From positions 62,001 through 126,000 of the IMG/VR virus record IMGVR_UViG_3300032092_000004: a stretch of 64,000 bases of DNA. One strand, written 5' to 3'. The notes below the pieces were generated by a model. That model worked only from the letters and a program-made list of their open reading frames with translations. It was not told where the DNA came from and made no database searches. The position numbers and the translations under genes were made by a program. This DNA is from a virus. This document shows positions 4,534 through 18,223 of this stretch, one piece after another. Position 1 is the stretch's first letter. Each line of letters opens with the position of its first letter.

Positions 4534-6906
4534 ATGGATCTTTTTAATCCACCAAAATTATACAATTACGAAATTATGATAAAAGATTTGGACTTTTCTA
4601 TGTTTGAAAACCCAATTATACAAGTTGTATGGGAAGATTTACCAGAAAACTTTACACAAGATAAACTTAAAAGTGTAAAACATTACTTCTCAAAAAAGTA
4701 TAACACAACCAACGTTAATGTCTTAACAAAGGCAAAAAACGTTGAAACTGAAATAACACAAAGTATTGATGTGTCGGTAAATATTAACGATGCTCAATAC
4801 CAACTTGAACTAATTACCAATTATCTAAAGTCAAAAGGACATGAAGATAAGAGTGAAGATGTATTGGCTATTAATAAAATGGTTGAAAATAGAATGTCTG
4901 GTGATGAAGAAAACCAAGCACAATTTAAAAAGTGGTATATTCGAAACATTGAGTTCTCAAACTTTTTATCATATGGTGAAAATCAAAGATTGGACTTTGA
5001 TAAGTTAAATGGAATTGTGGTGGTTGAGTCTGATCCACCAAACTTTGGGGGGAAAACGGTTCTTACCGTTGACCTCCTAATGTTTTTATTCTTTAATGAA
5101 ACAACAAAGACAACCAAAGCCGAGGAGATATTTAATCGATTTTCAAACAAAGATAAAGTTCACGTTAAGGGTGAAATTACTATCGATGGTGAGGATTACG
5201 TTATTATAAGAAACATTGAAAGAAAGTTATCTAAAAAAGGTGATTGGAACGTTAAAACAGAATTGGACTTCTTCAAAAAATTATCGGACGGTACCTTATT
5301 AAATTTTACTGGAGAACAAAGAAGAGAAACGGAAGCCTTCATTAAGAATTCAATTGGAACTAAAGAGGACTTCTTAATGACAATTCTAACAACAGGATCA
5401 AATCTTGAAGAGCTGTTAGAGTCAAAACCAACGGCACGAGGTCAGGTCTTGTCTCGTTTTATGGGACTTGAGTTTTTGAAAAGAAAAGAAGAAGTTGCAA
5501 AAGAAATCTATTCGGAGTTTTCAAAACAAAAGATTTCCAACATTTATTCATCAGAACAATTAAAAAGTGATATTGAAACACATCAAAACTCAATTTCTGA
5601 ATTACAAAATCAAATTAAGGAAAGTAAAGAAAAATTAGTTGAGGTTGATGATGCAATAACAAAAGGTAAAACATATCGTGATGATATGTTAAAGAAAAAA
5701 CACACAAACATTGATCAAGAATTGAGTTTGTTAAACCCTGAAAAAACCAAAGATGAAATTAAAGAAATTGAACGTGAGAAATCGGGATATCTTACAAAAA
5801 TATCCGAAATCAAAGTTGTTGAACCTTCTAAATTCTATGAAGAAGACATCCACGACAAGGTTAAAGAGGAGATCGGATTACTTTACAAAGATATCGTACA
5901 AGTTGATACAGAAATTGCGTCAATCAATAAACTAAAGTCTTCAGTTGAAGGTGGGATCAAATGTGAACACTGTGGAATTGAGTTGATGAACGCGGCAATT
6001 ACTAATGCAAAAATTGCAGAACTTGACGGATATACCCAACAGAAAACTCAAAAAGATGGGTTAATGCAGGAATTAACCATCAAAGAACAAAGTTTTGTAC
6101 AACTCAAAAAAGAGTTTGATGAATATGAGAAAAACAAGTTGGTTAAAGAAAAGTATGAGATTTCGGTTGAAAGTTGTGACCTTAAGATTGGTTCGTTAAA
6201 TGACAAGATCAAAAGGTGGGAGGAAATCCAAGATAAAATCCAAGAAAATCAAAAAATTGAATCTCAGTTAATAAAGGCCGATGTGAGATTAGATGAGTTG
6301 GAAAATCAAAGAAGAACAATTAATAATTCAATCACAACAAACGAGGGATCAATCAAATCTATCGAAGAAAAGATTGATACCAACCAAAAGAAAATTGTTA
6401 CAATTAAAGAGGAAGAAGAGAAGGAAAAGATATATAAGATCTACTTGGAACTTTACGGTAAGAATGGAATATCAAAAATGATTATGAAAACAATGATGCC
6501 ACTAATCAATTCTGAATTACAAAGATTGATGGAAGATTCATGTTATTTCAAATTGGAAATTCGTATTAATGACAAGAATGAGGTTGAATTTATCATGACT
6601 GACAATGCAACTGGTGTTGAAAAATTAATGACTTCAGGATCAGGTTTTGAAAAAACAATTTCTTCTTTGGCTTTGAGATCGGTCCTTACTAAAATTGCAA
6701 GTTTACCTAAACCAAATCTTGTTGTTCTTGATGAGGTGTTTGGAAAAATTGCCAATGACAACTTAGAGATGGTTTATGAATTCTTCACAAAAATTAAAGA
6801 TTATTTTGAAAAGATTTTTGTAATAAGTCACAACTCAATAGTGTCAACTTGGGGTGATCATGTTGTAAAAATTAAGAAGGAAAACAATTTGTCAAAAGTT
6901 TTATAG
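4534..6906 (+). CDS. gp46/SbcC/Rad50-like recombination ATPase
   Basis: SMC-like ATPase that works with the gp47-like nuclease in end resection and recombination-dependent replication. The N-terminal ATPase half begins near residue 130 with the FSNFLSYG element typical of gp46/Rad50. The P-loop is N170-F-G-G-K174-T175. Two long coiled-coil arms flank a zinc hook, C477-E-H-C480. The C-terminal half has signature SGSGFEK and Walker B L-V-V-L-D733-E734, then ISHN. The P-loop lacks the usual first Gly (Pro-Pro-Asn-Phe-Gly-Gly-Lys-Thr). A roughly 130-residue N-terminal extension precedes the ATPase fold, longer than in T4 gp46. Confidence 0.88.
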   Translation: MDLFNPPKLYNYEIMIKDLDFSMFENPIIQVVWEDLPENFTQDKLKSVKHYFSKKYNTTNVNVLTKAKNVETEITQSIDVSVNINDAQYQLELITNYLKSKGHEDKSEDVLAINKMVENRMSGDEENQAQFKKWYIRNIEFSNFLSYGENQRLDFDKLNGIVVVESDPPNFGGKTVLTVDLLMFLFFNETTKTTKAEEIFNRFSNKDKVHVKGEITIDGEDYVIIRNIERKLSKKGDWNVKTELDFFKKLSDGTLLNFTGEQRRETEAFIKNSIGTKEDFLMTILTTGSNLEELLESKPTARGQVLSRFMGLEFLKRKEEVAKEIYSEFSKQKISNIYSSEQLKSDIETHQNSISELQNQIKESKEKLVEVDDAITKGKTYRDDMLKKKHTNIDQELSLLNPEKTKDEIKEIEREKSGYLTKISEIKVVEPSKFYEEDIHDKVKEEIGLLYKDIVQVDTEIASINKLKSSVEGGIKCEHCGIELMNAAITNAKIAELDGYTQQKTQKDGLMQELTIKEQSFVQLKKEFDEYEKNKLVKEKYEISVESCDLKIGSLNDKIKRWEEIQDKIQENQKIESQLIKADVRLDELENQRRTINNSITTNEGSIKSIEEKIDTNQKKIVTIKEEEEKEKIYKIYLELYGKNGISKMIMKTMMPLINSELQRLMEDSCYFKLEIRINDKNEVEFIMTDNATGVEKLMTSGSGFEKTISSLALRSVLTKIASLPKPNLVVLDEVFGKIANDNLEMVYEFFTKIKDYFEKIFVISHNSIVSTWGDHVVKIKKENNLSKVL

Positions 6907-6936: not shown

Positions 6937-6944
6937 TATATTTG
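6937..6944 (+). promoter_or_regulatory. Bacteroidota-type -7 box TATATTTG
   Basis: TATATTTG matches the TAnnTTTG -7 element of Bacteroidota housekeeping promoters and lies 21 nt before the ATG at 6966. No convincing -33 TTTG is evident. Confidence 0.55.
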
Positions 6945-6965
6945 TAGAACAATTAAAACACACAA

Positions 6966-7490
6966 ATGAACTACTTACTTTTTGTTTATTATAATTCTGA
7001 GGTAGAAAACTCAGAAGAAAAAACACAAGAAATCGGAACACAACTTGCAGAACACATGACTAGTGGTCAGGTTAAATTTATGTATGGTGATCAACACGCA
7101 ATCTTTCATTTTGGGTGTAAAAGTGATTTCCAAGACGTATCTGATGTGGTATTTTTTATTTCCGAAGAAATACCGGGATTTGAATACCTTTTAACAAAAA
7201 AGGGTAGAGATTACAGTTCAAACTTTGATGAAGACAACCTTGGGCACTTAATGTCGTTAAAGAACACCACACCGAAGAAACATAAACCTGCAGCACCAAA
7301 GTTAAGAACAAACGATATTAAAGATGGAGAACCATTTTTGGATCTATCAAAACTTTTTTTAAATTTAAAAAGAAAAGAGGTTTGTAACCTAACGTTAGAT
7401 GAGTTATTGGATAAGATCGGTAACGAAGGTATCGAGTCATTGTCAGACTTAGAAAGACAAAAATTAGACGAATATTCAAAATCATTTTAA
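6966..7490 (+). CDS. hypothetical protein with DUF6576-like C-terminal tail
   Basis: A 174-residue protein. The first 90 residues look like a compact alpha/beta domain without a recognised family. A linker rich in Lys/Pro follows, and the last 35 residues (LTLDELLDKIGNEGIESL and on) resemble the short helical LDxILDKIxxxGxxSLTxxE segment found at the end of some Bacteroidota rhomboid proteins; no rhomboid domain is present. It has its own host-like promoter and is directly followed by the sigma factor gene, 9 bp away, so it may be an early regulator. That role is inference. Confidence 0.55.
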   Translation: MNYLLFVYYNSEVENSEEKTQEIGTQLAEHMTSGQVKFMYGDQHAIFHFGCKSDFQDVSDVVFFISEEIPGFEYLLTKKGRDYSSNFDEDNLGHLMSLKNTTPKKHKPAAPKLRTNDIKDGEPFLDLSKLFLNLKRKEVCNLTLDELLDKIGNEGIESLSDLERQKLDEYSKSF

Positions 7491-7499
7491 CAAACATAT

Positions 7500-8300
7500 A
7501 TGAAGGACAAAAACACAAGTGCCCCTATCAATCAGGACGAAATTTACCACTACCTTAAAGACATTAGAAAAATTAAGGTAATGACCGCAGAACGCGAACG
7601 TCATTTGGCAACACGAATGAAATCTAATGATCTAACGTTGATTGAAAAACAACAAATCGAACAAGAGTTGTTAACAGGAAATCTACGTTTTGTGATAACC
7701 GTGGCAAAACAATACCAAAATCAAGGTTTAGATTTATCGGATCTTATCGCTGAAGGTAATTTTGGTTTGATGAAAGCGATTAAGAACTTTGATTGGAATA
7801 AAGATTTACGATTTATTTCTTATGCTGTTTGGTGGGTCAAACAATCGATTATCCAATCTTTGAACGATAATTCAAGAACAATCCGACTACCGGTGAATGT
7901 TGTTCAGGATTTACAAAAAGCCAAAAAAGAATTGGAACAAACGGGCAAAAAACTTGATGATAAATTCCAAACTTTACCATCTATTATAGATTTGGATATG
8001 AATATCAATGAAGACGGTGATACTCTAATAGATATGATTGAGAATAAAGATGCTGTTGCACCTGACGCTAGTTTTTACACAAAAGACATATTAAAAGATA
8101 AGTTGATGAGACTTTTAGATGTTTTGGATGAAAGAGAAAAAGTCATTGTTGGGGATTATTTTGGGTTAACAGGAACACCAAGAACGTTGGAAGATATTGG
8201 ATCTGATTTTGGTTTAACTAAAGAACGTGTTCGTCAGATTAAAGAAAAGGCTCTTCGTAGACTTAGAAATGATTCTTCAGAGTTATTTGATTATTTATAA
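7500..8300 (+). CDS. RpoD-like sigma-70 family factor
   Basis: A 266-residue sigma factor. Region 1.2 (IYHYLKDIRKIKVMTAERE), region 2 (GNLRFVITVAKQYQNQGLDL, then DLIAEGNFGLMKAIKNFDW and WWVKQSIIQ) and region 4 with a helix-turn-helix (TLEDIGSDFGLTKERVRQIK) are all clear. Region 3 is reduced. It most resembles the short primary sigma of Bacteroidota, unlike the divergent T4 gp55. It could redirect host RNA polymerase to the TATTTAT motifs found upstream of late-type genes here; that pairing is inferred. Its last codons contain a copy of that motif, placed to drive the structured RNA downstream. Confidence 0.9.
   Translation: MKDKNTSAPINQDEIYHYLKDIRKIKVMTAERERHLATRMKSNDLTLIEKQQIEQELLTGNLRFVITVAKQYQNQGLDLSDLIAEGNFGLMKAIKNFDWNKDLRFISYAVWWVKQSIIQSLNDNSRTIRLPVNVVQDLQKAKKELEQTGKKLDDKFQTLPSIIDLDMNINEDGDTLIDMIENKDAVAPDASFYTKDILKDKLMRLLDVLDEREKVIVGDYFGLTGTPRTLEDIGSDFGLTKERVRQIKEKALRRLRNDSSELFDYL
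8291..8299 (+). promoter_or_regulatory. putative late promoter motif TTATTTATA at the end of the sigma gene
   Basis: The motif lies in the last codons of the sigma gene, 4 nt before the first base of the structured RNA region. There is no downstream start codon at the usual distance, so it may drive a non-coding transcript. Confidence 0.4.
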
Positions 8301-8303
8301 AAT

Positions 8304-8430
8304 GGGTTGAACCGAGATTACCCATACAACTCGGCAGAAGGTGCCTGAAGTCACCAAGGTGAAACTCCTCAATTCTATCTATACGGTAGAATGAAATTAC
8401 ACTCCCCCATCGGCGCCGGTGGGGGTTTTA
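8304..8430 (+). ncRNA. candidate small structured RNA with possible pseudoknot
   Basis: The 200-bp gap after the sigma gene has no ORF but much pairing. GTTG 8306-8309 can pair with CAAC 8327-8330 while CCGA 8312-8315 pairs with TCGG 8331-8334, an H-type pseudoknot order. GGTG 8340-8343 pairs with CACC 8352-8355, which could instead pair with GGTG 8358-8361, giving mutually exclusive folds. ATTCTA 8372-8377 pairs with TAGAAT 8387-8392. A strong terminator follows. A TATTTATA motif lies just upstream. It matches no ribozyme or riboswitch I recognise. It could be a free small RNA or a leader acting on the gene at 8499. Confidence 0.5.
8404..8430 (+). terminator. rho-independent terminator
   Basis: CCCCCA 8404-8409 pairs with TGGGGG 8420-8425 around a GC-rich inner stem, followed by TTTTATT. 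This is among the strongest hairpins in the window and separates the sigma operon and structured RNA from the next gene. Confidence 0.85.
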
Positions 8431-8473
8431 TTGTTTTATAGGGTTTATAATTATCAATCATTTGATTATTTTG

Positions 8474-12721: not shown

Positions 12722-14179
12722 ATGAACACAAGACAGTATATCAACTCAAGATTTGAAAAAATTATATCAGAAAATATTAATGAGAAGGCCGACGCTATCT
12801 TACAAAGATTGAATTACGATGAGGAAGCACCATTCAACCCTGCCGGTGAAGCGTTTGACTATGTACAGGAAGGCATGAAAGAAACTTGTGAACAATGTGG
12901 AACAGAAATGACTGAAGGTGAATGTTCAGAATGTGGTTACAAAAATGAAGAAATTATGGAACTTGGTGGTATGGATGACGGACACCCAAAATATGGAAAA
13001 ATGAATTTTTCTAAATTATCAAGAAAAGAAATCGAAAAAATCATGAAAGATATGGGAAATATGGAAGATGATGAGGAAGAAGATTTTATTGAATATGGTG
13101 ATGACGATGACGATGAGTGGGAAGAAGTTGATTTAGATACTGAAACTGATTGGGATCAATTAGAAGAAGATGAGTGTACTGAATGTGGTGATATGTATGA
13201 AATTGAACTTGATGAAAAATTATACGGAAACCAAACAAAACTTGACAAGAACAAAAATGGCAGAATAGACAAAGAGGACTTCAAAATTTTGAGAAAACAA
13301 CAGGATGAAGAAGAAACTCTTTATGAAGTAGAATTTGAAAAGCGTGAATACAATGAAGGTAGTAAACCTGACTTTTTGGATTTAGACAATGACGGTAATA
13401 AAAAAGAATCTATGAAGTCTGCGGCTAAAAGTAAAAAAATGAAAAGAAAAGTTACTGAGTCTTTGATTTTTACCGAAAATGAGTTGATCAGTATGATTGA
13501 AAAAATGGTCAACGAAGAAAAGAAATTTAAAATAGATGAACCTAAAGGTTATAGAGAATATGAAAAGGCTCATAAAGCTGATAAGAAAGAAAATGATGCT
13601 TATTTAAAAATGGTCGCTAAAAAAATGACTGATTATTTGAAAGGAGCATCTGACAAAGAGTCTAAATATGAAATGAAAGAGACTCAAAAATTCCCAACTG
13701 AAAATGGTGGTAAAAGAAAAAAATACACACCATCTGAGGCTGTTGATGATTATATCGATGCATTTTCTTACCCTGGTCAAACTAATTTAGTTTATGATGA
13801 GATTAAACCAAATGATGAAAGAATTGAAAAATATTTAAAAGGTGACAGTACTACAGGAAATGCACAAGTTGATAAAGACGGAAAAGCTTTAGGTAATGTT
13901 GTACCAAGTAATGTTGGAGATAAGTTCTTTAAAAATTATAAAGACAATTTATACGGTCAAGAACAACAAAATGCTTCTTATAAAAGACAACCACAACCTG
14001 TTGATCAAGCTGGTGAAGAAACTGAAAGAGGTTCTTTAAAATCAAAAAGAGGTAAAAAGACATCACAAAGTGTTTTGAATAAAGTTGAGGAATCTGTTAA
14101 TCAAAAAGAAAAACAAAAATTAACAGAAGAATTTGAAAGAATTCAAAATCTAATGGGTTATAACCAAAAGACTCAATAA
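12722..14179 (+). CDS. acidic leader-type protein with zinc-ribbon and EF-hand-like loops
   Basis: A 485-residue, highly acidic protein. The leader MNTRQYINSRFEKIISE ends in I15-S-E17, matching the T4 prohead-protease site. A Cys4 knuckle follows (CEQCGTEM then CSECGY), then Asp/Glu runs, and two Ca-binding-like loops: DKNKNGRIDKED near 176-187 and DLDNDGNKKE near 219-228. Two further leader-like helices occur inside, near residues 245-262 (FTENELISMIEKMVNEE) and at the C-terminus (LTEEFERIQNLMGY). I infer a head-internal or scaffold-like protein, perhaps processed at several sites. A putative late promoter lies 13 nt upstream. Confidence 0.6.
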   Translation: MNTRQYINSRFEKIISENINEKADAILQRLNYDEEAPFNPAGEAFDYVQEGMKETCEQCGTEMTEGECSECGYKNEEIMELGGMDDGHPKYGKMNFSKLSRKEIEKIMKDMGNMEDDEEEDFIEYGDDDDDEWEEVDLDTETDWDQLEEDECTECGDMYEIELDEKLYGNQTKLDKNKNGRIDKEDFKILRKQQDEEETLYEVEFEKREYNEGSKPDFLDLDNDGNKKESMKSAAKSKKMKRKVTESLIFTENELISMIEKMVNEEKKFKIDEPKGYREYEKAHKADKKENDAYLKMVAKKMTDYLKGASDKESKYEMKETQKFPTENGGKRKKYTPSEAVDDYIDAFSYPGQTNLVYDEIKPNDERIEKYLKGDSTTGNAQVDKDGKALGNVVPSNVGDKFFKNYKDNLYGQEQQNASYKRQPQPVDQAGEETERGSLKSKRGKKTSQSVLNKVEESVNQKEKQKLTEEFERIQNLMGYNQKTQ

Positions 14180-17710: not shown

Positions 17711-18223
17711 TTATAATACAATGGTTTTAATATGAAAATAGTTTTCCAACATTACTTTCTTCTGTTGGGGTTTGTTTTTGTTGAAGAATCTAAGATAATT
17801 ACCATCTAATGAATAAGTACTAGTCGGAACTACGTAAAGATTATCTCTACGAGTGGATTTCTCAAGTATAAATTCTATATAATCAAATACCTCTTCGTCG
17901 AAATTATCTTCATCTCTGAAGACAAACTTCAAACGATCACCTTGTGGATACCCTTCAAAAGAATTTAAGATTTTTCTATATTTTAACTCTATAACTTGTG
18001 ATAAAATGTTGTTTGGGACAGCAACTCTTTCGTGTGTTAAAGTGTCAGAATCAATTGAGTCTAAAATCGCACTTCGTATGAAATTAAAATTTCTGTTACC
18101 CATTCTATCAATTGTTTGATGAGTTGAAGCATAAAATGAATCACCTTCAGGACTGATAAATAATAAATCCTCCATATCGGCTTGCTCAACTATAATTGAT
18201 CTTAAAATTTGAAACATTTTCAT
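17711..18223 (-). CDS. leader-type protein (putative head-packaged)
   Basis: A 170-residue protein. I place the start at ATG 18223, not at an upstream in-frame ATG, because a late motif lies 5 nt before it and the resulting N-terminus MKMFQILRSIIVE ends in I11-V-E13, the leader pattern shared with other genes here. The body is a soluble alpha/beta domain without a recognised family. It diverges from the Dam-type methylase at 18292, whose promoter is of the host type, so the 70-bp gap separates an early from a late unit. Confidence 0.6.
   Translation of the reverse strand: MKMFQILRSIIVEQADMEDLLFISPEGDSFYASTHQTIDRMGNRNFNFIRSAILDSIDSDTLTHERVAVPNNILSQVIELKYRKILNSFEGYPQGDRLKFVFRDEDNFDEEVFDYIEFILEKSTRRDNLYVVPTSTYSLDGNYLRFFNKNKPQQKKVMLENYFHIKTIVL

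Follow-up and report, generated by a model that had tools for sequence, protein, structure and literature searches.

Type III toxin-antitoxin systems (ToxIN, CptIN and TenpIN) encode an endoribonuclease-type protein beside a pseudoknotted RNA. Phage PhiTE carries a noncoding pseudoknot RNA, pseudo-ToxI, which is a repeat mimic of a host antitoxin and is able to counter an RNase toxin (PMC3475682). The RNase RegB of phage T4 is a structural relative of toxin RNases that come with antitoxins, such as RelE and YoeB, and needs ribosomal protein S1 as a co-factor; a review has suggested that an anti-RegB partner might exist, in passages that describe no RNA partner (PMC3014915). Here, we describe RNA A, a new structured RNA family with members in dozens of lake phages, one to each genome. 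Like pseudo-ToxI it is a phage-encoded noncoding pseudoknot RNA, but it is single-copy, has an unrelated fold and was found here on viral contigs alone. From its genetic surroundings, RNA A is likely to be the partner of RNase-like proteins.

The copy studied lies in a stretch of 64,000 nucleotides (the window) from a virus record of 153 kb. It occupies positions 8301–8435 of the plus strand and starts directly past the stop codon of its upstream neighbor, a gene for a sigma-70-type factor of 266 amino acids (7500–8300, plus strand). The region has no conserved open reading frame, in agreement with a preliminary description of a compact structured stretch without one, and folds into an H-type pseudoknot, three hairpins, the third of them long, and an intrinsic terminator, all on the plus strand. 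The conserved core spans 8301–8396 (match of model R1 at 8301–8395, 108 bits). Within it, the P1 stem (8302–8325) pairs AUGGGU (8302–8307) with ACCCAU (8320–8325) and the pseudoknot stem (8312–8334) pairs CCGAG (8312–8316) with CUCGG (8330–8334). These are followed by the P3 hairpin (8340–8355, GGUG/CACC, loop CCUGAAGU), the P4 hairpin (8357–8369, loop UGAAACU, T-loop-like consensus GGUGNNANUCC) and the P5 hairpin (8370–8393), the last being the further hairpin already described. The terminator (8404–8435), also seen as strong at the outset, is a stem at 8404–8425 with a U tract.

As a single sequence, 8298–8435 folds moderately better than its shuffled versions (z = −2.2, or −1.7 without the terminator), as would also be expected of a terminator region folded by chance. 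The comparison of homologues speaks against that reading. Two alignments of RNA A, A1 with 51 sequences and the model-based A4 with 53, agree on five helices (P1, pseudoknot, P3, P4 and P5) and the terminator. In A4, 94.7% of cells are paired, compared with 29–52% when the partners are slid, and two-sided changes affect 144 cells in 11 pairs, compared with 40 cells in shuffles and 7–21 in slid controls. The excess of compensatory changes over controls is what distinguishes a structured noncoding RNA, and covariation had been among the checks proposed in the preliminary description; its absence in homologues, which would have told against the RNA, was not observed. It is strong in P3 (four pairs changed on both sides; variants GGUG/CACC, UGAGA/UUCUC, GGG/CCC and others), in P5 (five pairs changed on both sides) and in the terminator, and is found in one outer pair each of P1 and P4. 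The outer pair of P1 changes from A-U to U-A in 16–17 sequences (28 with A-U and 16 with U-A in one count), and its G-C pairs are invariant. The pseudoknot helix is paired in 53 of 53 sequences and nearly invariant, with one G-U variant (L070), and its support is conservation and geometry. The P4 loop is conserved, with the consensus UGNNANU and G-C closing pairs, and resembles a T-loop when judged by eye. RNA A is conserved about as well as the sigma gene or better, and the third codon positions of that gene are 49–63% identical in most of the same comparisons. Conservation beyond the level of those positions, together with the strong covariation, refutes the chance fold, to which we assign a negligible probability.

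The homologues also revise the internal architecture first proposed. A pseudoknot built from GUUG/CAAC and CCGA/UCGG had been suggested; the pairing of CCGA(G) with (C)UCGG stands, but the first stem is AUGGGU/ACCCAU. The GUUG/CAAC helix shows no pair changed on both sides and is disrupted in L101 and L113 and in the variant of L172, which keeps both P1 and the pseudoknot. The order of two interleaved 4-nt stems begins at 4,887 positions on the plus strand of the window; it is therefore common by chance and alone gives no evidence of a pseudoknot. Likewise, only one of two supposedly exclusive stems was retained: GGUG/CACC (P3) is conserved and covaries, but the alternative CACC/GGUG shows no pair changed on both sides, and 33 of 51 sequences cannot form one of its four pairs, so that there is no evidence for a switch. 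The promoter-like TATTTATA turned out to be the last sigma codons (Tyr-Leu-stop), and it is missing in homologues away from the sigma gene.

RNA A was found in approximately 90 stretches of viral contigs: a pattern scan returned 87 viral contigs and a looser scan 91 stretches, a few of them chance matches. Among 84,980 bacterial and archaeal genomes, two patterns gave 0 and 7 matches, all 7 of which were chance on inspection, and RNA A was not found in plasmids or, by DNA similarity, in isolate phages. Hence, it is known here from uncultivated phages only. Each of 27 strong-match records besides that of the window, up to 294 kb in size, has one copy, and some records of 274–296 kb from the same phage group, which may be incomplete, have none. 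The suggested Rfam search gave no family in Rfam 15 that matches RNA A under gathering and E-value thresholds, the best scores being at chance level (18–21 bits against thresholds of 44–60). RNA A is thus comparable to the structured RNAs in Rfam that were derived from metagenomes, which are likewise conserved, covarying and known from environmental sequence alone, but has no Rfam 15 match above threshold.

Many homologues have a Bacteroidetes-type promoter, TTTGGC...TATATTTG/TATCTTTG, that ends shortly upstream of RNA A. The window copy has no such promoter of its own and the nearest box, TATATTTGTA, lies at 6937 (6937–6946, plus strand; a consensus match only). RNA A in the window is the 3′ end of an operon transcript headed by this TATATTTG box, which probably drives 6966–7490, the sigma gene and RNA A. 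The idea of a small RNA held up, given the covariation, the single copy, the separate promoter in many homologues, the terminator and a structure that stays constant while flanking genes change.

The other function first proposed, a regulatory 3′ element of the sigma gene, did not. A cis element of the sigma mRNA (acting in stability or termination, or as a riboswitch) would fit the way in which RNA A abuts the sigma stop codon in the window and approximately 30 relatives. However, across 80 sigma-gene loci RNA A lies behind the sigma gene in many and is absent from others, including relatives with the same sigma gene, and elsewhere it is found downstream of zinc-ribbon, DNA methyltransferase or A7 genes (A7 is introduced below). 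It sits in the interval between DNA methyltransferase and DnaJ in L082, L088 and L172 and at a third genomic site in L096, L121 and L124. The gene that follows the terminator is often convergent, and a riboswitch for the downstream membrane-protein gene was rejected on this ground. With genes varying on both sides, there is no constant downstream or host gene of the kind expected for a riboswitch or cis leader, and the distance between RNA A sequences does not track that between sigma genes (r = 0.05, ten loci). The sigma link is incidental: a cis element is very improbable here, and as a general explanation it is refuted.

The neighbors with which RNA A does keep company are two protein families. 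A6 is one family of approximately 140 amino acids, with genes convergent to RNA A, and A7 is a second family of 165–179 amino acids, with genes that abut RNA A on the same strand in other loci. Among 90 RNA A stretches, 51 have A6 or A7 at a distance of 0–119 nt; of the others, 34 lack both at this range and 5 are truncated. The adjacency is seen in several orientations, and the genomic sites include three or more that are unrelated. RNA A is present in 28 whole records, of which 26 carry A6 or A7 somewhere (A6 in 14, and A7 in 12 of the 14 others) and two have no gene of either family. In G021, G023, G034 and G046, RNA A is beside neither and an A7 gene lies elsewhere; wherever the flanks of that gene were read, it is accompanied by an RNA of its own, RNA G. 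The distance between RNA A sequences follows that between A6 proteins and not that between sigma genes (partial r = 0.87, permutation p = 0.0005, ten loci), a correlation that physical linkage alone could cause but that shows the neighbor with which RNA A travels. Adjacent elements recombine together, so co-inheritance of RNA and protein is not proof of interaction. The type of P3 loop varies with the partner: none of 14 RNAs with a short P3 lies beside A6, compared with 24 of 39 with a long P3 (p = 6 × 10−5, not corrected for relatedness), and the window copy is of the short-P3 type. The window has a candidate trans partner 9 kb from RNA A, a gene of the A7 family for an RNase-like protein (17711–18223, minus strand, reading frame open to 18343; profile E = 9 × 10−17; HQ..R and S/T-S motifs), which has no adjacent RNA.

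RNA A is one of several RNAs found in such positions. In the 23 A6-bearing records examined, the convergent element is RNA A in 14, RNA B in 7 and a short promoter-terminator transcript in 2. Of the 9 records without RNA A, 7 thus have RNA B, driven by a strong promoter, convergent to A6. RNA B is a branched RNA of approximately 130 nt (L018, L020, L074, L015 and L039, and L197:6998–7128); model R2 detects it in 9 of 51 records, and Rfam 15 has no match to the loci carrying it. It was aligned from six sequences, and covariation tests were otherwise restricted to RNA A. The short transcripts, of approximately 75 nt, stand beside A6 in L220 and L221 in place of RNA A or B. Structured stretches of a further type, C, share ‘AAATACRCAGAAAYGTGGTRATYACC’ and lie near the same hot spot (L197, upstream of 6998; L198, 8790–8950, minus strand). 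A search begun from the A7 protein gave 26 distinct loci, 24 of which show a noncoding gap of 120 nt or more beside the A7 gene, compared with 1 of 63 other gaps; the sample is not fully independent, because the A7 profile includes some rows from RNA A loci. By RNA family, the flanking gaps hold E (7), G (8), F (4) and A (5), and there is one weak pair. Promoter-driven noncoding RNAs with terminators were seen beside A7 for RNA E (L232 and L233), RNA F (L234) and RNA G (L230 and L231), and the E and F modules have the order promoter, RNA, terminator, A7 gene. A noncoding stretch therefore lies next to nearly every A6 or A7 gene inspected, and these stretches represent at least five RNA families.

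A6 has a predicted fold of the RegB/RelE type (BECR). Its AlphaFold model (pLDDT 79) starts with a helix, continues with more helices and ends in four strands, a layout that may correspond to that of T4 RegB. It matches a phage protein annotated as a site-specific RNA endonuclease in BFVD (E = 3.5 × 10−4, probability 1.0), which places a RegB-type protein among its viral structure matches, as well as a Tenacibaculum phage protein; the match to the solved T4 RegB structure is weak (E = 2.2, TM 0.30). In contrast to RegB, A6 has no detectable sequence similarity to it and one invariant histidine only, with a nearly invariant arginine; a second invariant histidine, which would complete the RegB catalytic pair, was not found. 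One A6 member matches DUF4258 at 0.001. A7 has invariant HQ..R and S/T-S residues, weak matches to MuF_C (0.014) and a poor structure model (pLDDT 44), and is RNase-like by motif-level resemblance only. The A6 and A7 profiles gave no alignment with each other, a sequence search of solved structures with both gave nothing useful, PHROGs, PADLOC and NCBIfam gave no name for either, and the toxin models in PADLOC, Pfam and NCBIfam, including those of the ToxN, CptN and TenpN type, gave no match. The N-termini of A6 and A7, and of several other proteins of the window (for example, at 12722 and 19172), have an amphipathic start followed by (L/I)xE. Such N-termini are like T4 capsid-targeting sequences, and the proteins could possibly be packaged and injected; this stays a lead because the T4-type prohead protease (PF03420) was not found in the genome of the window phage and RegB likewise has an extra first helix.

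The modules resemble type III toxin-antitoxin systems in encoding a putative endoribonuclease-type protein beside a pseudoknotted RNA, RNA A having the H-type order with a helix invariant but for one G-U, and in the promoter-RNA-terminator-protein gene order of the E and F modules. They differ in that RNA A is a single unit (one per window, genome and record) and not a set of tandem repeats, RNA A and A6 are convergent, the order RNA-terminator-toxin is also absent from the window, and the A6 and A7 modules are phage-borne, with proteins outside known toxin models.

The best explanation, which as a whole we hold at roughly even confidence, is that RNA A restrains an RNase. Transcription of RNA A would start at a host-type promoter of its own or, in the window, run through from the sigma operon, whose 3′ end it forms, and would stop at the terminator of RNA A, in a class of modules with one compact RNA for each RNase-like protein (A6 or A7). 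The folded RNA would bind the RNase and keep it inactive, or set the time and place of its action, and so let the phage produce the enzyme while sparing its own messages. The window phage would hold a split pair, in which RNA A at the sigma site acts in trans on the A7-like protein at 17711–18223. Physical binding is suggested by gene arrangement, being the simplest reading of the fact that, across several RNA families, each RNase-like gene comes with one RNA. Inhibition, and trans action on the window protein, are hypotheses by analogy; inhibition is preferred over activation because antitoxins exist for RelE and YoeB, and pseudoknot RNAs restrain type III toxins.

RNA A might instead be an ordinary trans-acting small RNA, directed at host or phage messages or at a host protein, that merely shares an accessory-gene hot spot with RNase-like genes. 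Its promoter and terminator, its invariant unpaired segments and its many orphan copies, that of the window included, would all suit such a role. Yet the pairing with A6 or A7 has turned up at unrelated sites and for other RNA families too, almost all A7 genes have an RNA neighbor of this kind, and the invariant part of RNA A is structured and not an open seed region, which together make a general small RNA rather unlikely, if still a serious contender. We regard as improbable that the RNase uses RNA A as its substrate or cofactor, or is activated by it, in the way that T4 RegB depends on S1. The requirement of RegB for S1 (PMC3014915) would favor this role, as would the A6 gene of a 635-kb phage, which converges on a gene with an S1-like C-terminal domain, but the conserved core of RNA A has no GGAG RegB site. 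The S1-like domain at this locus (L235:2501–3330, LR745206.1) was recognized by eye.

If RNase restraint is the role of RNA A, its reach may be wider. We suggest, tentatively and with more doubt than belief, that large lake phages carry at least five unrelated compact RNA folds, each a dedicated inhibitor of a RegB-like RNase, with orphan copies being protective. T-arm-like hairpins in several of the RNAs (GGUGAAAAUCC, GGUUGAAAAUCC and GGGUUUAAAUUCC) may mimic tRNA and so hint at the targets of the enzymes. The present results correct the idea that RNA A serves the sigma gene and give a covariation-supported family, absent from the catalogues searched, that is tied to a recurring phage gene pair of RNA and RNase. 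Such modules are concrete candidate pairs for the question of an anti-RegB partner, as raised in the review (PMC3014915). If true, the proposal would make them the equivalent, carried by phages, of type III toxin-antitoxin systems, and orphan RNAs such as that of the window would guard the phage against an unlinked RNase of its own or the RNase of competing phages.
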